Origin: Ignavibacteriales bacterium
GTDB taxonomy: Bacteria; Bacteroidota; Ignavibacteria; UBA10030; UBA8401
DNA length: 37,465 nucleotides
Direction: 5' to 3'
NCBI GenBank assembly: GCA_026390635.1
Contig: JAPLFO010000162.1
Coordinates: 1 to 37,465, forward strand
Each line of letters begins with the position of its first letter. Positions within the stretch are counted from its first letter, which is position 1. The notes beneath the pieces are model-generated. The model was not told the DNA's origin. It was given only the letters and a program-made list of their open reading frames with translations, and did no database searches. The position numbers and the translations under genes were made by a program. Positions 14,604-31,582 of this stretch are shown here, piece by piece.

Positions 14604-14740
14604 GCCACAGTCCCGAGGATCTCGACTGATGCCGCAGGCATCAGTCGGAAGAACACAGAGAAACAAAGGCAAAAGTAAAAAGAAAAAAGTACTCAGATTA
14701 GCCTCTGTGTTCTCAGTTCTTTCTCTGTGTTCTCTGTGGC
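14604..14740. repeat. Inverted-repeat element, copy 1 (GCCACAG...CTGTGGC)
   Basis: A 137-base element with terminal GCCACAG and CTGTGGC. Near its left end is the perfect palindrome ACTGATGCC-GCA-GGCATCAGT (14625-14645), followed by CGGAAGAACACAGAGAAA. The right arm is TTTCTCTGTGTTCTCTGTGGC. The same palindrome module recurs at 16042-16108 in the same orientation and at 19182-19235 in inverted orientation. It carries no gene and fits a MITE-like or REP-type non-autonomous repeat. Confidence 0.75.
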
Positions 14741-16013: not shown

Positions 16014-16041
16014 CAGACGTCTCCTTTTGATGAACAGACCG

Positions 16042-16108
16042 GTCACAGTCCAGAAGATCTCGAATGATGCCGCAGGCATCATTCGGAAGAACACAAAGTC
16101 CTCTGTGG
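16042..16108. repeat. Inverted-repeat element, copy 2 (palindrome module)
   Basis: GTCACAGTCCAGAAGATCTCG, then AATGATGCC-GCA-GGCATCATT (16063-16083), then CGGAAGAACACAAAGTCCTCTGTGG. It is a shortened version of the element at 14604-14740, in the same orientation, and occupies most of the proB-proA gap. Confidence 0.75.
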
Positions 16109-17497: not shown

Positions 17498-18106
17498 ATG
17501 AAATATTTGATGGCTGTCTTGCTTTGGGCAGGATACTGTGCATTCCATAGCTACTTGATCAGTATCAGGATTACCGATCTGATGACTCGCATCCTCAAGA
17601 ACTATTTTGCCTTCTACAGGCTTTTCTACATAGTAATTTCCTTCGTTCTGATTGTTCCATTAATCAACTACACGGCACAAATAGAGAGCAACATCATTAT
17701 AGTGTACACGCCCCCCTGGTCCGTTGTCCGCCTTCTTGTGACGTGGGGTTCATTGCTGATATTCGCCTGGGCATTTTTCTTCAACTACGATTCCTTATCG
17801 TTTTTTGGAATTCGTCAGATACTGAGTTTTGGGAAGCCAAAGAAAACAGATCGTTCGAGTGAGATTAAGCGAAACGGATTATTGGGAATTGTGCGACATC
17901 CGATGTATTTCGCACTCATACTCTATCTCTGGTCTCAGACCTTCCGGGTGATGGATGTCGTCACAAACACGGTCTTGACGATCTACGTTCTTATCGGAAC
18001 AAAGCTTGAAGAAGATAAACTCATTCTCGAATTCGGCGATACCTACGTCAAGTATCAGCGGGAAGTACCCATGCTCATTCCGTTTACAAAAACAAAAACC
18101 GGCTAA
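17498..18106 (+). CDS. Integral membrane methyltransferase-like protein (NnrU/MddA/ICMT superfamily)
   Basis: A 202-residue polytopic protein with about five membrane helices. The C-terminal half has the superfamily signature RHPMYFALIL, followed by EEDKLILEFGDTYVKYQREVPMLIP, the E-E...FG..Y..Y..-V-P block that forms the S-adenosylmethionine site in isoprenylcysteine and methanethiol S-methyltransferases. The loop FNYDSLSFFGIRQI is typical of the MddA/NnrU branch. Substrate is unknown; methanethiol or another small thiol is possible. AAGGAG lies 10 bases before the ATG. A related but distinct protein is encoded 129 bases downstream on the same strand. Confidence 0.8.
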   Translation: MKYLMAVLLWAGYCAFHSYLISIRITDLMTRILKNYFAFYRLFYIVISFVLIVPLINYTAQIESNIIIVYTPPWSVVRLLVTWGSLLIFAWAFFFNYDSLSFFGIRQILSFGKPKKTDRSSEIKRNGLLGIVRHPMYFALILYLWSQTFRVMDVVTNTVLTIYVLIGTKLEEDKLILEFGDTYVKYQREVPMLIPFTKTKTG

Positions 18107-18235
18107 TTCCTTTTGTCGCATTTACATCAATAGAGAGGCTCTGTTGTTTCGAGTTTCATTGCAGGTGCGTAGCAACATTAAGCACCCGTACGGACTAATT
18201 TGTTCGGCCACATTTCACACTTGACGAGTGGGTCT

Positions 18236-18757
18236 ATGGACAGAAACATGTTCTTCAATTTAGTAATCGCATGTGTAACCACGCACATTGTCAGATCCGT
18301 TTATGAAATACTCAAACATAAGAAGGTCGTAAAACCTACCAAACTGTCTTTTGTGATCATATTTGCAGATATGGCGCTGCTATGGACGTCATGGTTCGTC
18401 CTCTGCGGCCTTGATATATATAGAATTGACCTGCCGGCCATCATCCGGTATGCGGGAATTGCATTCTCTGGCGCAGGTGGGATCGTTTTTGCTATTGCAC
18501 TCTTTACGATCAAGAGTCTGGAAAACCATGAAGGAGATCTCATCACTAATGGAATCTATTCAAGGATAAGACATCCGATGTATCTGGGATTCATATTGTG
18601 GCTCATCGGTTTTCCGATTTTTTATGGAGCTCTTTCTTCATTTGTTCTTTCGTTCTTCTTTATTGCAAATGTGCTGTTATGGAGATCTTTGGAAGAGAAA
18701 GAGCTGGTAGAAAGATTTTCAGCCTATAGGGCCTATAGAAAGACTACAATATTTTAA
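18236..18757 (+). CDS. Second membrane methyltransferase-like protein (ICMT/PEMT-type)
   Basis: A 173-residue protein with four to five hydrophobic helices. The signature IYSRIRHPMYLGFILWLIG and the closing block LLWRSLEEKELVERFSAYRAYRK match the isoprenylcysteine carboxyl methyltransferase / phospholipid methyltransferase superfamily. The ATG at 18236 is preferred; a TTG at 18200 would add 12 residues without support. The ribosome site is weak. The two tandem genes share only the generic R-H-P-M-Y and E-E motifs, so they look like separate subfamilies rather than a recent duplication. Substrate unknown. Confidence 0.8.
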   Translation: MDRNMFFNLVIACVTTHIVRSVYEILKHKKVVKPTKLSFVIIFADMALLWTSWFVLCGLDIYRIDLPAIIRYAGIAFSGAGGIVFAIALFTIKSLENHEGDLITNGIYSRIRHPMYLGFILWLIGFPIFYGALSSFVLSFFFIANVLLWRSLEEKELVERFSAYRAYRKTTIF

Positions 18758-19022: not shown

Positions 19023-19235
19023 TGGCGCAACAGAGAAAGAAGAGAACAGAGAAGAAAGCAAAGTTCCAGAGAGAAACAGGGTTTTCTTTTCGACACTGAG
19101 GCATGTGAGCAAGACTTTGTAAATAATCTGCACTCTCTCTTTGTGCCCCGTCTTTTTCTCAAGAGGGAATAGCCTTGAGATCTGTGTTCTTCCGAATGAT
19201 GCTTGCGGCATCATTCGAGATCTTCTGGACTGCGG
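19023..19235. repeat. Inverted-repeat element, copy 3 (inverted)
   Basis: The palindrome module is present in reverse: TGTGTTCTTCCG, then AATGATGC-TTGC-GGCATCATT (19195-19215), then CGAGATCTTCTGGACTGCGGC. The far arm GGCGCAACAGAGAAAGAAGAGAACAGAG lies at 19024-19051. The element is diverged and carries about 130 extra bases compared with copy 1. Confidence 0.6.
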
Positions 19236-19292
19236 CTGTTCTGATCCCGCCCGCCGGGCAATCACACTCTCACCAATAACGAGGAGGCTCGT

Positions 19293-20861: not shown

Positions 20862-22328
20862 CTATGGTTGTACTACCAGCGGGCGGCGAGCTTCGTAATC
20901 AAACAGGGTCAGCCGCCGGACGCGGAAGTACGTGGACCAGTAATTCCAGAGCGTTTGAATGCGTGAACGCCGCGCGCTATCCTTCTCGCTTTGTGCCAAA
21001 AATAGATTCGGAATATCGATCTTTCCGATCATATACCGGTCTTTTGCGACATCAAACCGGCGCTGCGCCACGGAATCGGCGCGGGCCGTGACCGCTACCT
21101 GCGTCCTCAAGAGATTCAGTCGCGCCACCTGATAGAGTACTTCCTGCTCAAAGGCAAGACGCTGCTGATCGACAGACGTCGAGGCCCGCTGCTCTTCCGC
21201 GATGGCAGCATCGATCGCCGCACTCTTTGCTCCCCAGAGAAAAATCGGCATACTGAACTCCAGGCTGAACTGCCGTTGATCCAGCAGATCCCTGTACGAG
21301 TCCTCGAGCTGCGTTGCGCGCTGATTGTAGCCAAGATTTGCGGAAAGCGTTGCAGTAAATCCGTTGGTCGACCGCGCCTGCGCGACTCCCCGCTCAGCGT
21401 TCAATTTCTGCAGTTCAAAATTCAAAACGTCGCTCCGGTAACTGCGCGCATTTGCAAGCGCTTCTTTGGAATCCACACTCCCGAGAATGGTGGCTTCCGG
21501 TTCTCTCACCGCCACCGGCCGGTCTGCCGGAAAGTTCAGAACCGCGCAGAGTGTCCGGCGTACATTGTCGAGAGCGATACGCGCGTTTTCCAGTTCGGTC
21601 TGCGCGTTGAGACATGCGAGTTCACTTTGCAGCAAATCATTCTCGCTGATCTTGCCGACACCAAATCTACCTTTCGATATCCGGTAGAGTGTGTCGTTGT
21701 TGGCCAGATTCAATGCGGCATTGTCGTACGTCATCGATGCCAGCAGATAGTCGAAATACTTGTTCGTCACATCGACGGCACAATCTTCCATTGCTTCGGC
21801 AAGTTCCCTGGTGGACATTTGATAGCGGAGATGCTGCTCATCAAGATTCCAGCGCAGAGTATTCATCTGAAAGATCGGTTGGCGAAAACTGACATTCAGC
21901 GGATTGGAACGATAGTACTGGCTTTTCGTATCCAGCAGATCGATGCGATTGATGCCGGACGACACCGAAAATTGACCGCCTGTAAACGGAATAGCCTGCG
22001 ACAGAGAAATACTGGCCGCGGAGGTCGCCTGACTCTGTGGAGCGAACACGGTGCTGCCGTCCGGCAGTGTGATTGAGTTGATGGAATGATAGTATCCCGG
22101 CACATCCCCCTGCATACTCAACTGCGGGTAGAGTGTTGCCATAAAGGATTCGTAACCGAATTGCCTCGACTCGTAAGATCGGCGGGCGATGTTTCCGAGC
22201 GGTCCGGATTCCTGCGCGGTGCGGATGCAATCGAAGAGCGACAGAGTGCTGTCCAATCTACTTTGAGGAAAAACCGATACAAAGAGACCAGGACCAAGAA
22301 TTGCGAGAAGAAGAGTTCGAATATTCAT
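20862..22328 (-). CDS. TolC-family outer membrane efflux protein
   Basis: A 488-residue outer-membrane channel component. An N-terminal signal peptide (MNIRTLLLAILGPGLFVSVF) is followed by two outer-membrane-efflux repeats with long amphipathic helices, for example SENDLLQSELACLNAQTELE in the first half and the matching IDIPNLFLAQSEKDSARR near the end. It should form the trimeric exit duct for the adaptor and permease encoded upstream. The ATG at 22328 is chosen; the longer frame to 22397 only translates a repeat (PQRTQRAQR) and lacks a signal peptide at its start. It is separated from the upstream permease by two repeat copies and a gene remnant. Confidence 0.92.
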   Translation of the reverse strand: MNIRTLLLAILGPGLFVSVFPQSRLDSTLSLFDCIRTAQESGPLGNIARRSYESRQFGYESFMATLYPQLSMQGDVPGYYHSINSITLPDGSTVFAPQSQATSAASISLSQAIPFTGGQFSVSSGINRIDLLDTKSQYYRSNPLNVSFRQPIFQMNTLRWNLDEQHLRYQMSTRELAEAMEDCAVDVTNKYFDYLLASMTYDNAALNLANNDTLYRISKGRFGVGKISENDLLQSELACLNAQTELENARIALDNVRRTLCAVLNFPADRPVAVREPEATILGSVDSKEALANARSYRSDVLNFELQKLNAERGVAQARSTNGFTATLSANLGYNQRATQLEDSYRDLLDQRQFSLEFSMPIFLWGAKSAAIDAAIAEEQRASTSVDQQRLAFEQEVLYQVARLNLLRTQVAVTARADSVAQRRFDVAKDRYMIGKIDIPNLFLAQSEKDSARRSRIQTLWNYWSTYFRVRRLTLFDYEARRPLVVQP

Positions 22329-22343
22329 TGAAAAGTTTTTTGT

Positions 22344-22396
22344 CCCAGAGAACTCAGAGGAATTTTTCCTCTGTGCTCTCTGTGTCCTCTGTGGCA
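22344..22396. repeat. Palindromic repeat, CACAGAG family (left flank of permease remnant)
   Basis: CCAGAGAACTCAGAGGAATTT pairs with the inverted TTCCTCTGTG...CTCTGTGG arm, forming a 53-base palindrome. A second copy lies at 22534-22612. The pair encloses the fragment of a permease gene. Confidence 0.75.
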
Positions 22397-22405
22397 AATG
22401 TTTTT

Positions 22406-22533
22406 CTATTCATAACGCAACGAAACCACCGGATCCTGTTTTGCCGCGTTCATTGCTGGAAAGATTCCGAACGCAATGCCGAACACAATCAGAACTATGG
22501 AGAAGAGCGCAATCATCATGGACGAGATTGCTC
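22406..22533 (-). pseudogene. C-terminal remnant of a second ABC permease
   Basis: The minus strand reads an in-frame tail of 37 residues from the double ATG at 22519, or about 41 from the edge of the repeat, ending FPAMNAAKQDPVVSLRYE and a TAG stop. That end is identical at protein level to the last 25 or so residues of the intact permease (22621-23973). Over 82 bases (22409-22490 against 22624-22705) I count six mismatches. Further upstream the two diverge (MMIALFSIVLIVFG against VSFTISIAIG), so this is the end of a paralogous permease, not a simple copy of the neighbour. The rest of the gene is absent: a repeat begins directly at 22534. It was probably left by a deletion between repeats. 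Confidence 0.85.
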
Positions 22534-22612
22534 TGCCACAGAGATCACAGAGAGCACAGAGGAATTTGTCCTCGATCCCATTTTCTCTGTATCCTCTGCG
22601 ATCAGTGCGGCA
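22534..22612. repeat. Palindromic repeat, CACAGAG family (right flank of permease remnant)
   Basis: TGCCACAGAGATCACAGAG is matched in inverted orientation by CTCTGTATCCTCTGCGATCAGTGCGGCA. Arms of about 28 bases and a spacer of about 22 bases. Its outer end, GCGGCAAATGTTTTTTATTCATAACG, matches the outer end of the first copy (GTGGCAAATG...ATTCATAACG), so the repeat and the gene ends were duplicated as one block or converged by conversion. Confidence 0.75.
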
Positions 22613-22620
22613 AATGTTTT

Positions 22621-23973
22621 TTATTCATAACGCAGCGAAACCACCGGATCCTGTTTTGCCGCGTTCATAGCCGGAAAGATTCCGAATGCAATGCCGATCG
22701 CAATCGAAATGGTAAATGATACAATCACCGACACACCGCTCACAATTGTATTGATCCCGGCAAACCTTTCGATTGCGCTGCTCAGCAGAAGACCGAGCGC
22801 GATACCGATCAATCCGCCGGTCACACTGATCATCACCGCTTCACTCAGAAACTGAAAGATCACATGTCGCCGCGTTGCGCCGATGGCACGGCGTATGCCG
22901 ACTTCTTTCGTCCGTTCCAGCACAGAGGCAAGCATGATATTCATAATCCCTATGCCGCCGACAACGAGGGATATCGAGGCGATGGCACCCAGGACAATAT
23001 TGAAGATTTCTTTTGTGCGCTGTTCCTGCTTGAGCAATTGCTCGGGAACCGTCACCTGAAAATCCACAACTCCGTTATGGCGCCGCTCGAGCATGCGACT
23101 GATGATTTCAGCAAGCCCGCCCATTTTAGCCGATTCTGCAACCCTCACCACCAGGCGATCCAGTTGGTGATAATTCACCGCTTTTTTGTCCGATTCATCG
23201 GAGGCATCGTTCCCTGAGGAGCGCGCTGCCTTTTGAATATCTGTGCGTGTTACCATTGTCCGGTTCTTGTACCGCAGCAGCAACGTGCTGATGGGGACAT
23301 AGACGTCGAAGTTGAAATCCCGCAAGCCGAGATGTTGCATCGACCCTTTCGACATTTTACGTTCCTGCAGTACACCGATCACCGTCAGCCAGAGGCTGCC
23401 GCATTTAACGGTCCTGCCGATAGGATTCTCGGTGGCGAAGAACTTTGTTTTAATGCCGTAGCCGATCACCGCCACCGGCGCAGCCAGATCCGCCTGTACG
23501 TCTGTAAATATCTTCCCTTCTGTCAGTTCGAAATCGGTTGCGTGAAAGTACGTGGAATCGATACCGACAATCTTTGCACTTCGTTTCATCCCTTCACGAA
23601 TCACAACCGTCTCGACCACTACCTCCGGGCTGATAAAATCCACAAACGGCAATGTTTTCTGGATGCTCCGGCCGTCTTGCAGCGTCAAACCCGGACTGAA
23701 TTTTTTCTTTTCCTTTTTCTTCGATGCATCTTCATCTGTGACTTTGCCCTCTTCCTGCTCCACCACCGGTGTGATGATAATATTATTGGCACCGAGGAGC
23801 TTCATCTGCTCGAGAATTTCCTGTTCCGCTCCGGTGCCGACGGCAAGCATGGAGATGACGGAACCGACACCAAAGACGATGCCGAGCGATGTCAGGATAG
23901 CGCGGAGCTTGTTGTGCGTGATTGCTTCAACCGCGATGCTCAGACTCTGGACAAAAAGCGGATAGATGCTCAC
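22621..23973 (-). CDS. MacB/FtsX-like ABC transporter permease
   Basis: A 450-residue permease. The N-terminal membrane helix (about 22-45, AILTSLGIVFGVGSVISML) is followed by a large periplasmic MacB_PCD domain (about 50-300) and a C-terminal FtsX domain with three helices (about 330-352, 375-400, 410-435). Typical elements are GANNIIITP near the start of the periplasmic part, LERTKEVGIRRAIGATRRHV and the closing FPAMNAAKQDPVVSLRYE. A lysine- and glutamate-rich insert sits near 72-91. No nucleotide-binding domain is fused. The GTG start at 23973 overlaps the adaptor stop (GTGA). It needs a separate ATPase, which is not encoded anywhere in this window. Confidence 0.92.
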   Translation of the reverse strand: MSIYPLFVQSLSIAVEAITHNKLRAILTSLGIVFGVGSVISMLAVGTGAEQEILEQMKLLGANNIIITPVVEQEEGKVTDEDASKKKEKKKFSPGLTLQDGRSIQKTLPFVDFISPEVVVETVVIREGMKRSAKIVGIDSTYFHATDFELTEGKIFTDVQADLAAPVAVIGYGIKTKFFATENPIGRTVKCGSLWLTVIGVLQERKMSKGSMQHLGLRDFNFDVYVPISTLLLRYKNRTMVTRTDIQKAARSSGNDASDESDKKAVNYHQLDRLVVRVAESAKMGGLAEIISRMLERRHNGVVDFQVTVPEQLLKQEQRTKEIFNIVLGAIASISLVVGGIGIMNIMLASVLERTKEVGIRRAIGATRRHVIFQFLSEAVMISVTGGLIGIALGLLLSSAIERFAGINTIVSGVSVIVSFTISIAIGIAFGIFPAMNAAKQDPVVSLRYE

Positions 23974-25196
23974 TTCTTTGCCTCAAAGGGAGTCGTGAGA
24001 TATATCCTGTCTTTTTCAGTAAGCCCTTCAAGCACAATGGCTTCGTTGTCGTTCATGAGTCCGAGTTTGATGGGCTGTTTCATCGGAGCGCCGCGATCCT
24101 GTTTGTAGACAAACGTCCGTCCGCTATCGGCGTGGAGACATTCAAGTGGAATCGAGAGGGCATTTTTCTGTTCCGCCACAAGAATCTCGTTCGAAGTTGT
24201 CATGGACGGCCGCAAGGTGCTGTCCGATTCCTGGACATGGATGTGCACTTCAAACACTTTTGAATCCGAGTTTGGACGCTGTTCGCCGATATTGGCAACG
24301 CTGATGATGCTGCCGGTGAGCACTTTTTTGGGGTCCGCATCCAACTTGATGCGTATCGACTGACCGACAGCAATTTTCTGGATATCGATTTCGCTGACAT
24401 AGGTGATCGATTCCATGTCCCGCAGATCCGGCAGTGTCGCTACAGTCGGTTCCCACGCGTTGATGGTGGAACCGACGACTTTCTTTTTGCCGTTCCATTC
24501 GCGGGCATAGATAACCATGCCATCCGCCGGAGCCTTGACGGTAAAATCTCCAACCGTGCGCTGGAACAACTCTGAACGCTGACGTTCCTTCTTCAAATCC
24601 GCTTCAACAGTGACAATCTTTGCGATGGCCTGCTGTTTTTTCGTTACATAATTTTTTTCCGCCTGAGTGAAATTGCGCTGTGCCCGTTCGTAGTCTATTT
24701 CCGCCTGGCGCTGCATAGCGGGCGCTTCGTACTTCGACTGCTCCAGATAGATCTGCTTTTCTTCTCTAGCGTAGCGAAGGTTGACCAGTTCATCCCGCGC
24801 CTGAGCGAGCGTGAGTGTGCTGTCCAGCGTAGTTTGCAAATACTGAGCATCCAATTTCTGGACAGTGAGAAGAGATTCTTTGTATTTATCGGTGATTTCA
24901 GACTTGTCAAGATCTGCGACAAAATCCCCTTTCTTCACGACCGTTCCTTCGGGCACGAGGGTGCTGATTTTCATCTGCCAGATGTAGACAGCGCGAGCAT
25001 TTTCCGGACCCATGACCTGGATGGAATTCTTTGCCTGCAATTCTCCGGTGGTGGTAACGAGTACCCTGAACTCTCCCCGTCGCGGAGAGGTGGTGACATC
25101 CTGTTTCCCTCCGGATTCTTTTCCGGAGATGAACCAGAATACTGCTACCAACAAGAGTATTACAACTGCGGAAATGATAATGATGCGGCGTTTCAT
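23970..25196 (-). CDS. HlyD/MacA-type periplasmic adaptor
   Basis: A 408-residue membrane fusion protein: N-terminal anchor helix at about 5-23 (IIISAVVILLLVAVFW), first half of a barrel-sandwich hybrid domain, a long helical hairpin (about 105-215, rich in Q, E and K), the second half of the barrel (FTVKAPADGMVIYAREW), a beta-barrel domain (ITYVSEIDIQKIAVGQSIRIKL region) and a membrane-proximal end. It would link the inner-membrane permease to the TolC-like channel. First gene of the efflux group. An operator-like palindrome lies 34 bases upstream of its ATG. The ribosome site is weak. Confidence 0.92.
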   Translation of the reverse strand: MKRRIIIISAVVILLLVAVFWFISGKESGGKQDVTTSPRRGEFRVLVTTTGELQAKNSIQVMGPENARAVYIWQMKISTLVPEGTVVKKGDFVADLDKSEITDKYKESLLTVQKLDAQYLQTTLDSTLTLAQARDELVNLRYAREEKQIYLEQSKYEAPAMQRQAEIDYERAQRNFTQAEKNYVTKKQQAIAKIVTVEADLKKERQRSELFQRTVGDFTVKAPADGMVIYAREWNGKKKVVGSTINAWEPTVATLPDLRDMESITYVSEIDIQKIAVGQSIRIKLDADPKKVLTGSIISVANIGEQRPNSDSKVFEVHIHVQESDSTLRPSMTTSNEILVAEQKNALSIPLECLHADSGRTFVYKQDRGAPMKQPIKLGLMNDNEAIVLEGLTEKDRIYLTTPFEAKK

Positions 25197-25509: not shown

Positions 25510-26661
25510 TCACGTGTTCGGGCGCTCTCCAAATCGCTTCGCTGCATAGAACACAATGCAACCAAGGACGAGGGCAACGGCAAATCCCTGCGGAACAGTA
25601 AACGCAATGAGGCCGGTCAGAAGCGCGATGAGAAGATTGCGCGAAGAGGAGCTTTGATCCCGGATGAAGGACAACAGCGTCAGTGCTTCGAAGAGAAGCA
25701 CAACACCCAAAATCGGTCGGGGAAAAATTTTCAGCAGCTCATACAATGGGCCACTGAAAAAGAGTCCTGTTAGCAAATAAAAAGTGCCATAGATAATCAC
25801 CGCACCGCCTGTCCGGGCGCCAAAGGTGTAGTGCCCCGCCAACCCGCCGCAACCATGGCAGACTGGAATCCCACCGAAGAACGGTGCGATGAGATTGACG
25901 ATCGAGTACGTCAGCCCGATCTGGCCCGCCTTCACGGAACGCTCCGGAAAGAGATCATGGATCGTTTTCTCCGTCGCAATCACAGAATTGGAAATGGAGA
26001 GCGGAATCTGGGGCAGTGCCAACAGCATTGTACCGGTAAGGATGTCATCCCAACCGGGTACGCGAAATTGCGGCAACGCGAGGCGCACATCTCCCAGAAT
26101 TGCGTCCATATGCAATCCGACAACAAGAGCGTACAGCACTCCTATGCCGATCACCAGCAGTCCCGGTGGAATGCGCCGGTTTCCCCACAGAAGGATCATG
26201 AGAAACATCCCGGCCAGCGCCAGGCCGTAACCGGGCAATCCCATTGAAGGCACGTAGTCTTTCAGTGCAAGCGACGCAAGTGAAAGGCCAAGCCCGAATT
26301 GGATTCCCCGTACCACGGCGGGGGGAATCCAGCGGATGAGCAACGTCAACCCGCCTGTTATCGTGAGAAAGAGCATTATGATGCCCACCGAAATGCCGGC
26401 GCCAAAGAGAACGGGACCGGCAATTTTCTGCGTGATGACTAACACTGCCATCGCTTTGAGCGGCTGCATCGGCATCGGAATGCCGTAGACGATGCCGGTA
26501 AGAATCTGCATCAATCCAAACATGATAAAGACGCTCGCACTGTCAAGTCCCGCGGCAAGGATAATGCCGACAATAAGGGGCAGATCCGTGCCGATATCTC
26601 CAAAACTGCCGGCAAGTTCGTTTCGATCGAAGCGGATGCGATTCCGGGTGAAAGCTTTCAT
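25510..26661 (-). CDS. MOT1-type molybdate/sulfate transporter
   Basis: A 383-residue polytopic protein with ten or more hydrophobic helices, of the SulP-related MOT1 family (MFS_MOT1). Signature blocks are NELAGSFGDIGTDLPLIVG (residues 14-32), PMPMQPLKAMAVLVITQ and PVCHGCGGLAGHYTFGARTG. MOT1 proteins are high-affinity molybdate carriers in plants and algae, and bacterial homologues are commonly labelled putative sulfate transporters. Its ATG overlaps the mobA stop (ATGA), inside a molybdopterin cluster, which argues strongly for molybdate as substrate. No ModABC genes are in the window, so this may be the route of molybdate entry. Confidence 0.88.
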   Translation of the reverse strand: MKAFTRNRIRFDRNELAGSFGDIGTDLPLIVGIILAAGLDSASVFIMFGLMQILTGIVYGIPMPMQPLKAMAVLVITQKIAGPVLFGAGISVGIIMLFLTITGGLTLLIRWIPPAVVRGIQFGLGLSLASLALKDYVPSMGLPGYGLALAGMFLMILLWGNRRIPPGLLVIGIGVLYALVVGLHMDAILGDVRLALPQFRVPGWDDILTGTMLLALPQIPLSISNSVIATEKTIHDLFPERSVKAGQIGLTYSIVNLIAPFFGGIPVCHGCGGLAGHYTFGARTGGAVIIYGTFYLLTGLFFSGPLYELLKIFPRPILGVVLLFEALTLLSFIRDQSSSSRNLLIALLTGLIAFTVPQGFAVALVLGCIVFYAAKRFGERPNT

Positions 26662-27281
26662 GCGATCGCCTCCCGTCCGAGAGCGGCCAATCGCTCAACA
26701 TCGTCGGGATTGTTTACATTGATGAAAGATCCGGCTCTATAGCCGTTGTAGTGTGATTCTATGTCGATGATCTCACCCTCCGCCTTCCGGACAAGTTCGA
26801 GCACGGGACACATTTTTTCTTTCTGCACGGATTGCTTTCTTGCCGCGATGATTTCCTGCACTAACGGAAGGATGCTTTTGGAATAGATGCCGCACAATTG
26901 CTGAACAAAACCATCTGCCCGCGCCACAACGATCGGTCGTGCCGTCGGATAGCTGATGATAAATTCGATGATGTCCGGAGTAATCATCGGCATATCACAA
27001 CTCAGGACAAATATTCTTTCCGTCGCCGCTGTGGTAAGGCCTGCATGAATGCCGGCGAGAGGTCCCCGATGATCGATCAGATCAGGAACGGTACGAAGTG
27101 AAAGCATTGCGTATTCTTCCGGGGTGTTCGTGCTCAGCAGAACTTCAGAGAAAAGCGACACCATGCGTTTGGCAACAGACTCAATCATTGTCGCATTGCC
27201 AAAGGGCAGCAGAGCTTTGTTCGTTCCCATGCGTGTGCTCCTGCCGCCGGCGAGGATGATGCCGGTTATATCGGAATGCAT
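26658..27281 (-). CDS. mobA: Molybdenum cofactor guanylyltransferase
   Basis: A 207-residue nucleotidyltransferase that attaches GMP to molybdenum cofactor to give the MGD form used by DMSO-reductase-family enzymes. The GTP-binding loop ITGIILAGGRSTRMGTNKA lies at 5-23 and the catalytic segment is LSCDMPM. The ATG at 27281 has GGAGG 4 bases upstream and overlaps the moeA end by 16 bases. A longer frame to 27398 runs through moeA and is rejected. A related possibility, the cytidylyltransferase MocA, cannot be fully excluded; the LAGGRSTRMG loop and protein length fit MobA better. Confidence 0.88.
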   Translation of the reverse strand: MHSDITGIILAGGRSTRMGTNKALLPFGNATMIESVAKRMVSLFSEVLLSTNTPEEYAMLSLRTVPDLIDHRGPLAGIHAGLTTAATERIFVLSCDMPMITPDIIEFIISYPTARPIVVARADGFVQQLCGIYSKSILPLVQEIIAARKQSVQKEKMCPVLELVRKAEGEIIDIESHYNGYRAGSFINVNNPDDVERLAALGREAIA

Positions 27282-28480
27282 TCCACCTCCGCACCGGCCG
27301 GCAATGACTGAACGCTTTCCGGAACAATAACAAGGCAATTTGCATCGCTGAGTGTCTTCATATCTCCCGACGATCGGGCAGCAAGAACGGCAGCACAATT
27401 CTTCCCTGAAACCGCATCATAGCGAATCACCCCGCGCATGAAATGACGCATCGTGTCCTTTTTTGAGATCGGATTTTCCAGCGATGCACGAAGTTGAGGC
27501 AGTGCGTGCTGGTGATAAACAGTTTCAAGAAACGGCTTGACAAAAAGCGAAAAGCCGACGAAAGCGGAAACGGGATTGCCGGGGAGCCCGAAGACCGGGA
27601 TTGCTTTCTCCCCTTTCTGCAGCATCCCGAAGAGAACAGGTTTGCCGGGACGGATTTTCACCCGCCAGAAGATGGTCCTCATCCCAACCGACTCCAGCAC
27701 TTCCTTGACATAATCGTGTGCGCCGACAGAAACACCGCCGGTTGTTATCAGAAGATCCAGATTCTGTTCCTCCAGAGCATTCCCGATCGTTGCACGCAGC
27801 TGCTCCTTTGAGTCAGCGACGACACCAAGATCAACGGGAATCAACTGCATCGACTCGGCAGAAGAAATTAGCATCGAAGGATTTGTTGCGCGAATTTTGT
27901 CGTCCCGCGGGGTGGATTCAATTGGAATCAGCTCATCACCTGACGATAGAATGCCCGCTCTCAGTTTTTGAAACACCAATGGATGATGACATCCGCATGC
28001 GGCGAGAAGGGAAACAGTTTGCGGCTTGATGAATGAGAACCCCGGAACTGCAAGAGAGTTGCACTTGAGGTCTTCACCCTTCCTTCGAATATTCTTCCCC
28101 CGAAGAATGGCGGCATCGTCGCGAAGACGGATACGATCGCTATCAACAAGAACATCCTCAATCGGAATAATGGCATCGGCACCATCAGGCAACGATGCGC
28201 CCGTCATAATAGCAACGGCAGATTCTTCATTCAGTTTGAATCCGGCAGAATGTCCCGCATGGGAAGTAGCAATGATCTTCCACTCTGTTGTCCCGGGCTG
28301 CAAGCGCACAGCATATCCATCTACGGTGGAATTGTCGAACGGAGGAAGATCGGTATCTGCGACGACGTTTTCTGCCAGAATGCGGCCAGATGTCTGCAGA
28401 AGCGTGAGCGTCTCTGTTCGCAATGAAAGAGATGCGCCGTGACTGCACACAATACGAAGAGCGTCAGCGTATGAAATCAT
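27266..28480 (-). CDS. moeA: Molybdopterin molybdenumtransferase
   Basis: Inserts molybdate into adenylylated molybdopterin. The 404-residue length is typical. DLPPFDNSTVDGYAVR is at 44-59, MTGASLPDGADAIIPIED lies in the domain that closes over the active site, and ILSSGDEL, TTGGVSVGAHDY and VFGLPGNPVSAF mark the MogA-like domain III. The ATG at 28480 is preferred; a TTG at 28498 would add six residues. No Shine-Dalgarno is visible for either. The 3' end overlaps mobA. A dispersed repeat separates it from the MOSC gene. Confidence 0.95.
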   Translation of the reverse strand: MISYADALRIVCSHGASLSLRTETLTLLQTSGRILAENVVADTDLPPFDNSTVDGYAVRLQPGTTEWKIIATSHAGHSAGFKLNEESAVAIMTGASLPDGADAIIPIEDVLVDSDRIRLRDDAAILRGKNIRRKGEDLKCNSLAVPGFSFIKPQTVSLLAACGCHHPLVFQKLRAGILSSGDELIPIESTPRDDKIRATNPSMLISSAESMQLIPVDLGVVADSKEQLRATIGNALEEQNLDLLITTGGVSVGAHDYVKEVLESVGMRTIFWRVKIRPGKPVLFGMLQKGEKAIPVFGLPGNPVSAFVGFSLFVKPFLETVYHQHALPQLRASLENPISKKDTMRHFMRGVIRYDAVSGKNCAAVLAARSSGDMKTLSDANCLVIVPESVQSLPAGAEVECIPI

Positions 28481-28529
28481 TGTGAGAGGAGACCACAAAA
28501 TAATTGATGGCTATCCAACGTTGTTCGTC

Positions 28530-28680
28530 ATCCGGAGCAAACGCTCTCTGCCAAAGGCATTCCTTTGGAAGACTCGCTCGGGGTAACGCAGCAGCCTTCT
28601 AAAAACGCCTGCGTTATACGATTTCATATGCCGTCATCCCGAGCGAGTCCCGCCATAGCGGGACGAGTCGAGGGAAGTGT
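28530..28680. repeat. Dispersed palindromic repeat, CCCTCGACTC family, copy 3
   Basis: GTAACGCAG...CTGCGTTA (about 28584-28617) forms an 8-bp stem, then CGTCATCCCGAGCGAGTCCCGC-CATA-GCGGGACGAGTCGAGGG includes a perfect GTCCCGC/GCGGGAC hairpin. The modules match those at 1295-1407 and 5228-5297. It fills most of the gap between the MOSC gene and moeA. Confidence 0.65.
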
Positions 28681-28687
28681 GACAAAA

Positions 28688-29167
28688 TTATGATGACGCC
28701 ATGAAATCACGTTTCATCTTTTGTGGAGATGACGACACCGTTATCATATCGCCGGGCATTATCGTGCCGCCGCGAATCACGCGCGCGAAGATACCCTCCC
28801 GCGGCATCACACAGTCTCCGACAGTTGCATAGATCGCGCAACGTGAGTGGCATTCTTTTCCGATCTGTGTCACTTCCAACTCGGCTTCATCACCAAGTTT
28901 CAATCGAGTACCCAGCGGAAATGCCGGCAGCTCTATAAACTCCGTGGTGATATTTTCAGCAAACGCTCCCGGCTGCAAATCCGGCAATCCCTTCGCCCGC
29001 ATTTCATCGATCCGTTCCAGCGCAAGGAGGCTCACCTGACGATGCCAGTCGCCTCCATGAATATCCCCTTCAAGCCCGAAGCCTTCGATGAGGCGAATCC
29101 GGGAAACATTCGACTTGGGAACGCCTTTCTTCTTGCTTATCGATATTGCGACGATTTTGCCGGTCAT
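28688..29167 (-). CDS. MOSC domain protein
   Basis: A 159-residue stand-alone MOSC (Moco sulfurase C-terminal) domain. EGFGLEGDIHGGDWHRQVSLL (residues 28-48) is the typical glycine-rich entry, and KECHSRCAIYATVGDCVMPREGIFARV carries the conserved cysteines near the predicted pterin site (about residues 103-130). MOSC domains bind molybdenum cofactor or transfer sulfur or oxygen functions to it. The gene starts 10 bases after moaC on the same strand, so it is part of the cofactor operon. The role in this cluster is inferred, not known. Confidence 0.9.
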   Translation of the reverse strand: MTGKIVAISISKKKGVPKSNVSRIRLIEGFGLEGDIHGGDWHRQVSLLALERIDEMRAKGLPDLQPGAFAENITTEFIELPAFPLGTRLKLGDEAELEVTQIGKECHSRCAIYATVGDCVMPREGIFARVIRGGTIMPGDMITVSSSPQKMKRDFMASS

Positions 29168-29177
29168 ACTCTGCTGA

Positions 29178-29660
29178 TTATTTTTCGTCTTCCGCCTGAA
29201 ACGGGCCGCTCTTCCCGCCGCTTTTCGATACCAAATGGATATCTGCTATCCGGATTGCTTTGTTGACCGCCTTGCACATGTCATAGACCGTCAGCGCAGC
29301 GACCGTGACAGCAGAGAGCGCTTCCATCTCGACGCCCGTGGTACCGATTGTTTTTACAAGAGAAGTAATCGCGATGCTTGTGCTGTTACTTTTCAATTGA
29401 AATTGGATATCGACAAACGACAACGCCAGCGGATGACACAACGGTATCAACTCCGCTGTCTTTTTCGCAGCCTGTATTCCGGCGATGCGCGCAACCGCCA
29501 GCACATCACCCTTTGCGATCTCATGCCGCTCCACTGCTGCATATGCATCCGCTCCCAGAATAACCTCGGCCGATGCCTGCGCCGTTCGCAGCGTTGCAGC
29601 TTTCGCCGATACATCGACCATGCGGGCATTTCCCTGCGCATCCAGATGAGAGAGTTCCAC
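29178..29660 (-). CDS. moaC: Cyclic pyranopterin monophosphate synthase
   Basis: Acts after MoaA: converts 3',8-cyclo-7,8-dihydro-GTP to cyclic pyranopterin monophosphate. A 160-residue protein of normal length. PLCHPLALS contains the conserved cysteine-histidine, GVEMEALSAVTVAALTVYDMCK the substrate-binding glutamate region, and the following lysine in AVNKA corresponds to the essential lysine of E. coli MoaC. KSGGKSGPF closes the fold. The start is a GTG at 29660, 3 bases after the moaA stop, indicating coupled translation. Confidence 0.95.
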   Translation of the reverse strand: MELSHLDAQGNARMVDVSAKAATLRTAQASAEVILGADAYAAVERHEIAKGDVLAVARIAGIQAAKKTAELIPLCHPLALSFVDIQFQLKSNSTSIAITSLVKTIGTTGVEMEALSAVTVAALTVYDMCKAVNKAIRIADIHLVSKSGGKSGPFQAEDEK

Positions 29661-29663
29661 GCG

Positions 29664-30665
29664 TTACCCTCCGATTCCGGTCATTGTTGATCTGCCGCCT
29701 GCGGCCAGCTGTTCTGCCGGCGGATGAACTTTCCACTTCATTCCAAGCGCTGCGAGAATGCCGGCATGGATTTCTTTTTCGGTCCCGCCGCCTCGCAACA
29801 GCGGCGCGACGTCGAATTCCTGCTCCGGCAGAGAGAAGAGACATGCTTTAATCCGTCCGGAAGCGGTGAGCCGAAGCCGGTTGCAGGAGCCGCAAAAATG
29901 TTCAGAAACCGGAGTGATAAATCCTATGATGCCTTTCTGCCCGCCGATCAGGTATTCCTTTCCGACGGCATGGACGTCGGATATTTTCGGTATCAATTCG
30001 TACTTCTCCTGAATCCGGCGTTTCATATCGCGCCAGCTCATAAATGACTGCCTGTCCCACGCATTATTGGGAAACGGCATGTATTCGATGAAACGGACGT
30101 GCAGATTCTTCTCCGCGGCAAATGCCGCGAACTCGGCGAGTTCGTCATCGTTGACGCCGCGCATCACGACGGTGTTGATCTTGATGGATTCAAATTCCGC
30201 AGATTGCACAACACTGATCGCCTCCAACACTTCTTTCAATCCATCCTGTCCGGTGATTTTTTCATAGCGATCCTCCCGCAGGGAATCAACACTGATGTTG
30301 ACGGCATCCACACCGGATGATTTCAAGACAGCACAGTGCTGACGGAGCAGCGTTCCGTTGGTTGTCACTCCGAGCATGAAGGGATGGTCGCGTTTGAATT
30401 CACCGAGTGTCTTCAAAAAACCGGTGATGCCCTTGCGTACAAAAAGTTCGCCGCCGGTCAACCGGATCTTTGTCACGCCGCATTCGAGAATAAAAAATCG
30501 AATAAGCCGAAGCACTTCGTCGAAAGAGAGAGAGTCCTTCCGGCGAGATCCGACAGTATTCGGCAACAGCGGATTGCAGTACAGACAATGGAGATTGCAG
30601 TGATCAGTCAGAGAAATGCGCAGGTAGGTATGCGTACGCCCATGTCTGTCTATTAGTTCATTCAT
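29664..30665 (-). CDS. moaA: GTP 3',8-cyclase (radical SAM)
   Basis: First step of molybdopterin synthesis. A 333-residue protein. The N-terminal cluster is C23-x3-C27-x2-C30 (DHCNLHCLYC), the C-terminal GTP-binding cluster C258-x2-C261-x13-C275 (CGSCNRLRL to KAC), and the protein ends in GG, as required of MoaA activity. The radical SAM GGEP motif reads GGEL at 71-74 here. I chose the ATG at 30665 because NELIDRHGRTHTYLRIS is the family start; the upstream frame to 30749 has no homology. No Shine-Dalgarno. XdhC lies 101 bases upstream. Confidence 0.95.
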   Translation of the reverse strand: MNELIDRHGRTHTYLRISLTDHCNLHCLYCNPLLPNTVGSRRKDSLSFDEVLRLIRFFILECGVTKIRLTGGELFVRKGITGFLKTLGEFKRDHPFMLGVTTNGTLLRQHCAVLKSSGVDAVNISVDSLREDRYEKITGQDGLKEVLEAISVVQSAEFESIKINTVVMRGVNDDELAEFAAFAAEKNLHVRFIEYMPFPNNAWDRQSFMSWRDMKRRIQEKYELIPKISDVHAVGKEYLIGGQKGIIGFITPVSEHFCGSCNRLRLTASGRIKACLFSLPEQEFDVAPLLRGGGTEKEIHAGILAALGMKWKVHPPAEQLAAGGRSTMTGIGG

Positions 30666-30766
30666 TGAAAATATCTCAAACCCATTGGGAACTTTGTTTA
30701 CTTCAATTGAGCAGACACTTTGACATTGCCGCCGCAGAATTTGACGCACGCCATCTTTCTGTCATC

Positions 30767-31582
30767 TTACGCCGACAGAGGATTCATCCTGAACGGGATT
30801 TCGGTCTTCCCGTATTTGATCGCAATCATTTGCGCAAGAATGCTCACCGCAATCTCATCCGGCGTATGTGAGCCGATATCAAATCCCACCGGTGCCGTCA
30901 CGGTCCGCAGTACAGATTCATCATATCCATCTGCACTGAGGCGATCGAATACCTGCCGCACTTTCTTACCGGACCCAAGCAGGCCCAGGAATTTGTATGG
31001 CCTGCCAAGACAATGGCGTACCGCCATCTCGTCGTATTTGTGTCCATGCGTCATAACGACAATAAATGTATCCTGATCGAACCGGAGCAAATCCGATGCC
31101 TGCCCGAAAGGAGCACAGACAATCTGCGCAGCGCAGGGATGACGCTGTGCATTGGCCCATTCGGGCCGGTCATCAAACACTGTCACCAGGAAGCCCGCAC
31201 GGGATGCCATTTCCGACAAGGCAATGCCGCAATGCCCTGCCCCGAATATTGTTAACGGCGAACCGGAGAACAATGGTTCCACCAGGATTTCCTGAAATCC
31301 GCCGCAGACCATGCCCGTCGGCAGTGCATCCAAGTGTTGCATTCCAAGATCGTACTTCCATCGGGCCATCACGCATGGCTTTTCCTGCAGAATGCGATCG
31401 ATCACCCGGCGTTCAATTTCGCCTCCGCCGATTGTACCGTCGATACTTCCGTCGGGAAAAACGGACATCTTCATTCCCGGCTCCACCGGTGTTGACCCTT
31501 CGACGGCTATTACCGTCGCAAGCCACACCGGCGACCGATGCTCTTCAGCATCTGCCAGACTTCTATAGAAGGTTCTGCTCAC
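30767..31582 (-). CDS. XdhC/CoxI family Moco maturation factor
   Basis: A 271-residue protein that in known cases binds Moco, protects it, and assists sulfuration and insertion into xanthine dehydrogenase or CO dehydrogenase type enzymes. The XdhC domain is N-terminal (VEGSTPVEPGMKMSVFPDG and GTIGGGEIE, about 27-57), followed by a Rossmann domain (TIFGAGHCGIALSEMA, about 109-124; FVKLxGxxGSGKK-like LGLLGSGKKVRQVF). Start is a GTG at 31582. No molybdenum hydroxylase is encoded nearby, so its client lies outside the window. First gene of the molybdenum cluster, divergent from the lactate permease. Confidence 0.92.
   Translation of the reverse strand: MSRTFYRSLADAEEHRSPVWLATVIAVEGSTPVEPGMKMSVFPDGSIDGTIGGGEIERRVIDRILQEKPCVMARWKYDLGMQHLDALPTGMVCGGFQEILVEPLFSGSPLTIFGAGHCGIALSEMASRAGFLVTVFDDRPEWANAQRHPCAAQIVCAPFGQASDLLRFDQDTFIVVMTHGHKYDEMAVRHCLGRPYKFLGLLGSGKKVRQVFDRLSADGYDESVLRTVTAPVGFDIGSHTPDEIAVSILAQMIAIKYGKTEIPFRMNPLSA

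Follow-up and report, generated by a model that had tools for sequence, protein, structure and literature searches.

The stretch of DNA analysed here (the window; 37,465 nucleotides, contig JAPLFO010000162.1 of Ignavibacteriales bacterium assembly GCA_026390635.1) carries a three-gene operon for a MacAB-TolC-like tripartite exporter whose own ATPase gene is missing, both in this genome and across dozens of related species. Given the sequence comparisons described below, we judge it probable (roughly 60%) that the pump is powered in trans by a shared, or 'multitask', MacB-type ATPase, most likely one of the C134 type. The genes are arranged on the minus strand in the order adaptor, permease and channel, and the features relevant to our argument are as follows.

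23970-25196, minus strand: first gene, MacA-like periplasmic adaptor (membrane fusion protein), 408 amino acids
22621-23973, minus strand: MacB/FtsX-type permease without an NBD, 450 amino acids
22864-22917, minus strand: codons for the major coupling helix region, permease residues 353-370 (ERTKEVGIRRAIGATRRH), corresponding to the NBD contact of MacB
22624-22674, minus strand: codons of permease residues 434-450, the region of the minor coupling helix at the C terminus
22402-22490, minus strand: second copy of the end of the permease gene rather than a gene in its own right, 92% identical to 22617-22705 at a spacing of 215
22343-22621, no strand assigned: CACAGAG-type interspersed repeats in the permease-channel gap
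20862-22397, minus strand: TolC-like outer-membrane channel

The adaptor matches the HlyD_D23/HlyD_3 families of Pfam, and its NCBIfam scores for RND_mfp (90 bits) and MacA (77 bits) both fall below the cut-offs. An orthologue occupies the same position in the operons of relatives, and in the window the adaptor gene overlaps that of the permease by 4 nucleotides. The permease matches both MacB_PCD (PF12704, 123 bits with a cut-off of 27) and FtsX (PF02687, 78 bits with a cut-off of 25.5), as well as MacB entries in the PDB. The channel is recognized by the Pfam OEP family (128 bits) and scores 98 bits against the NCBIfam TolC family, which is below the curated cut-off. Because the 5′ end of its ORF, which opens with a TTG codon at position 22397, only translates CACAGAG repeats, the true start is probably the ATG near position 22328. 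All three frames are open and are conserved in relatives, and thus ORF analysis and Pfam matches confirm a first-pass annotation of this DNA, which had described the three genes as intact and ordered. That annotation had also reported no ABC ATPase in the operon or elsewhere in the window, and this observation was borne out by a genome-wide search for PF00005, wherein none of the 40 matches resides on the contig of the window (C79). The operon is flanked on one side by a gene for a GNAT acetyltransferase and on the other by a molybdenum-cofactor cluster (window positions 25510-31582) encoding a MOT1-type molybdate transporter, MobA-like, MoeA, MOSC, MoaC, MoaA and XdhC proteins.

With its MacB periplasmic core and FtsX C-terminal domains, the permease is a member of the MacB/FtsX (type VII) family. 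By both sequence and fold, the best PDB matches are to MacAB-TolC, a type VII ABC tripartite efflux pump (PDB 5NIK, 5GKO and 5LIL), with which this system has in common an adaptor, a four-TM FtsX-type permease carrying a MacB periplasmic domain, and a TolC-like channel. However, the ATPase of MacB is an N-terminal fusion, whereas the operon described here encodes none, fused or separate, and therefore does not qualify as a self-contained MacAB-TolC system. The same permease fold is found in Spr0694-0695 (PDB 5XU1), in DevBCA and in the operons designated C64 and C134, where ATPase and permease are separate polypeptides. Each of these operons encodes an ATPase, but those of the present permease clade do not.

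Full-length orthologues of the permease are present in 15 others among 60 relatives (65-78% identity) and, wherever the contig allows an assessment, adaptor, permease and channel genes occur in the same order without an ATPase gene. Another 13 genomes of the same class agree, and the same arrangement is evident in named genomes of Bacteroidota, Chlorobiota, Kapaibacterium, Neomarinimicrobiota and Zixibacteria. A second paralogous group (41-46% identity), one member of which is encoded on C53 of the host genome, is likewise ATPase-less, and operons for more distant permeases (mostly below 40% identity) often include an ATPase gene. In a FastTree tree, the window permease belongs to a clade of 51 and the second ATPase-less clade has seven members; none of the operons examined from either clade has a MacB-type ATPase. 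The sole ATPase-flagged member of the larger clade (L169) proved to have a 572-amino-acid exporter of another type located behind the channel gene. When both groups are restricted to operons with at least 3 kb of flank on each side, 0 of 33 have a MacB-type ATPase inside the operon, and four of the 33 have some ABC ATPase farther away or on the opposite strand. Because the same operon starts with a MacB-like ATPase gene in the near sister L174, one ancient loss of the ATPase at the base of the clade is plausible. The operon therefore exhibits the conserved absence of an ATPase gene expected of an ABC system that depends on a multitask ATPase. Separately, four acidobacterial operons (L182, L186, L188 and L191) encode three adaptors, a permease and a channel, with no ATPase gene in the flank examined.

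These observations bear directly on the explanation initially favoured for this locus, namely that the ATPase, along with most of a second permease, had been deleted between repeats, perhaps leaving a dead operon. It had been acknowledged at the outset that relatives lacking the ATPase over long evolutionary time would speak against this idea, an expectation largely borne out by orthologous operons in many families and several phyla. The repeats between permease and channel are real: the motif CTCTGTGNNCTCTGNG matches seven times in the window versus 0.03 expected, with six of the seven matches at this gap. What was taken for a fragment of a second permease is also real as sequence, but its identity was misjudged, being a copy of the last 89 nucleotides of the permease gene itself (22617-22705), with weaker similarity reaching back to cover permease residues 412-450 (67%). 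In relatives the gap measures 12 (L083) or 115 nucleotides (L084) and holds no second permease. The simplest reading of these sequences is that the tail copy arose by local duplication in this genome alone, perhaps with homogenization later, and is not what remains of a lost gene. Recent deletion by way of the repeats is rejected, given that relatives lack the ATPase and second permease alike. The chance that the operon is dead is almost negligible: the repeats and tail copy do sit where such an event would leave them, between permease and channel, but relatives without the duplication have the identical gene set, the frames are intact, and dN/dS is low. Specifically, comparison of the permease with that of L084 yields a dN of 0.15 at a near-saturated dS of 2.4, and a closer pair from genus g3 yields a dN/dS of 0.046 at a dS of 1.0. 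The permease is thus under strong purifying selection.

Two other repetitive features were noted in the window. An interspersed repeat of 55-64 nucleotides is present in three copies (14604-14660, 16032-16098 and 19181-19246; 89-91% alike), two direct and one inverted. In addition, two adjacent genes at 17498-18757 encode small membrane proteins with a common stretch (GACATCCGATGTAT..., 77%), the second being a PEMT/ICMT-type methyltransferase and the first having no Pfam match; these are perhaps tandem duplicates.

Published evidence indicates that MacB touches its NBD through a major coupling helix between TM2 and TM3 and through a C-terminal minor helix (PMC5985334). An AlphaFold model of the permease (pLDDT 85) presents an N-terminal amphipathic helix, TM1, the periplasmic domain and TM2-4, with residues 355-364 of the major and 443-448 of the minor coupling helix forming helices, and Foldseek returns MacB (5gko) as its best PDB match (E 1.9e-27, TMq 0.75). 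The four-TM fold with both coupling helices is therefore present. Residues E353, R354, E357, G359, G365 and A366 of the major helix, and P434, A435 and A438 of the minor helix region, show no variation in any of the 58 ATPase-less permeases, and conservation of the coupling-helix core is much the same in permeases that have an ATPase (75 of 75). An E. coli MacB sequence aligned for comparison, on which no conclusion depends, agrees with PDB 5nik in its coupling region. When compared with all remaining permease positions, the coupling helices have entropies of 0.86 versus 1.50 in the ATPase-less clade and 0.58 versus 1.37 in C134-type permeases. Because the helices of the ATPase-less proteins are less extremely conserved relative to the rest, the NBD contact appears to be kept but perhaps under looser constraint, a point that counts against ATPase sharing. 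Given the strong purifying selection and the invariance of NBD-contact residues, an ATPase is probably still used and encoded elsewhere, an option that had been offered in the first-pass annotation and that gains support from the conserved operon as well.

The host genome encodes five NBDs of the MacB/LolD/FtsE type (C64, C134, C182, the LolD protein C200 and the FtsE protein C93), of which C64, C134, C182 and C200 each adjoin their own permease. Two of the ATPases are of the MacB type, each with its own permease beside it, and there are three ATPase-less MacB-type permease operons, located on C79 (the present operon), C53 and C31. The last of these (C31:71973-74470; L105:4809-8474) encodes an adaptor followed by two MacB-type permeases. 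An orphan MacB-type ATPase was sought in the ATPase inventory of the host, and no spare gene of this kind was found there or in the near-complete relatives examined. The C134-type operon (OMF-adaptor-ATPase-permease-permease) is nearly universal, with its ATPase present in nearly all of the 60 relatives, and a C134-like ATPase also occurs in every one of the 19 outside genomes with an ATPase-less operon, at 61-73% identity in 18 of them and at 55% in the other. The first-pass annotation had envisaged conservation of an ATPase elsewhere in the genome; a MacB-type gene of this kind exists nearly everywhere, but it is not an orphan. Because this ATPase is so widespread, co-occurrence cannot discriminate among partners, and the balance of ATPases and ATPase-less operons is consistent with sharing rather than proof of it.

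The C64-type operon provides a natural experiment. Genera g2, g4 and g6, along with members of two further families, have it as adaptor, ATPase and permease genes; in the host genome (g1), the contig begins just before the ATPase gene. In nine g3/g5 genomes and in G043, only the adaptor and permease genes remain (in a tenth g3/g5 genome, G012, the contig stops short of the adaptor). A C64-type ATPase is absent from all ten g3/g5 genomes. Its gene is cleanly missing from their loci (L117-L126, as compared with L127-L136), and no significant remnant of it was found there. Since the ATPase-less C64-type permeases nest among ATPase-bearing ones in the tree, the direction of change is likely to be ATPase loss. 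The g3/g5 permeases are full length with a dN/dS of about 0.04, and among ATPase-less C64-type pairs with measurable dS, six of seven have values of 0.03-0.06 and one of 0.23. The maintenance of this permease by selection after the loss of its ATPase implies that it is served by a different one. Twelve residues are fixed differently between C64-type permeases with and without an ATPase, and two of them, an R-to-K and an R-to-T change, map to the coupling helix. Both changes are to the residue commonly seen in C134-type and ATPase-less permeases, which is suggestive only. Covariation at the coupling helix was rejected as proof of a partner switch, in that two of 12 columns is not significant and the ATPase-less group is one clade.

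It is possible, but unlikely, that the pump is driven in trans by some other type VII ATPase, namely LolD, FtsE or a C64- or C182-type protein. All of these candidates are present in the host genome. In two distant genomes, a LolD-like gene is located at a distance of 2-4 kb from the operon (L177:13431-14093 and L249:10862-11581), which could be chance or a hint that LolD serves the operon. Moreover, some members of the class (G240, G277 and G180) each have one LolD/MacB-type ATPase without an FtsX neighbour, although we presume that these represent scattered lolCDE genes. A C64-type ATPase was rejected as a universal partner because it is absent from g3/g5 genomes that retain the operon. The case for LolD must contend with LolCE permeases that differ strongly from this permease (30 bits for NCBIfam lolCE versus a cut-off of 362) and with a coupling-helix motif that is common to MacB-type permeases.

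A private ATPase could simply be missing from the assembly, which is 96.2% complete and spread over 202 contigs, and thus a dedicated orphan might be encoded in the unassembled 4%. We regard this as improbable, given that carriers rated 100% complete (G010, G012 and G096) have the same imbalance of ATPases and permeases and likewise lack an unpartnered MacB-type ATPase. It seems quite improbable that the complex operates without ATP hydrolysis, for example as a passive or sensing conduit whose NBD surface is a relic. Such a role would accord with an operon that has lacked an ATPase gene over long evolutionary time, yet a relic surface should decay and the core contacts are fully invariant; furthermore, characterized MacB-type pumps are ATP-driven (PMC5985334).

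The reading we prefer, sharing of a MacB-type ATPase, draws on the operon itself, its deep conservation, purifying selection, the retained NBD-contact residues and the lack of a spare MacB-type ATPase; from these we infer the sharing, the identity of the partner and the mechanism. The operon would encode a working tripartite exporter with a permease that lacks both an ATPase domain and an ATPase gene of its own. A MacB-type ATPase from elsewhere, most likely that of the C134 operon, would dock on the conserved coupling helices, and ATP-driven closing of the permease dimer would then push periplasmic substrate via the adaptor into the channel by mechanotransmission.

The closest parallel is found among sugar importers, where one multitask ATPase such as MsmX or MsmK energizes ABC operons that lack their own (PMC7658222). 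In both cases, an incomplete ABC operon would be served by an ATPase encoded elsewhere. However, MsmX and MsmK are orphan genes that serve type I importers, and sharing has been demonstrated experimentally for those importers only, whereas the present system is a type VII exporter and its candidate ATPase has an operon of its own. ATPase sharing among ABC systems has been described as uncommon, with documentation for sugar importers (PMC7658222), and within the open-access literature we found no reports of ATPase-less MacB tripartite operons or of motor sharing in this pump family. With these distinctions in mind, we lean slightly toward the broader proposal that, in bacteria of the Bacteroidota/Chlorobiota type, one ATPase acts as a hub for several tripartite MacB-type exporters whose private ATPases have been repeatedly lost. 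If true, the energy supply to several exporters of the envelope would be set by one ATPase, and many seemingly incomplete or broken operons would be functional. The C64-type operon, whose ATPase is present in some genera and absent from others close to them, would then offer a natural test of the specificity between NBDs and permeases.
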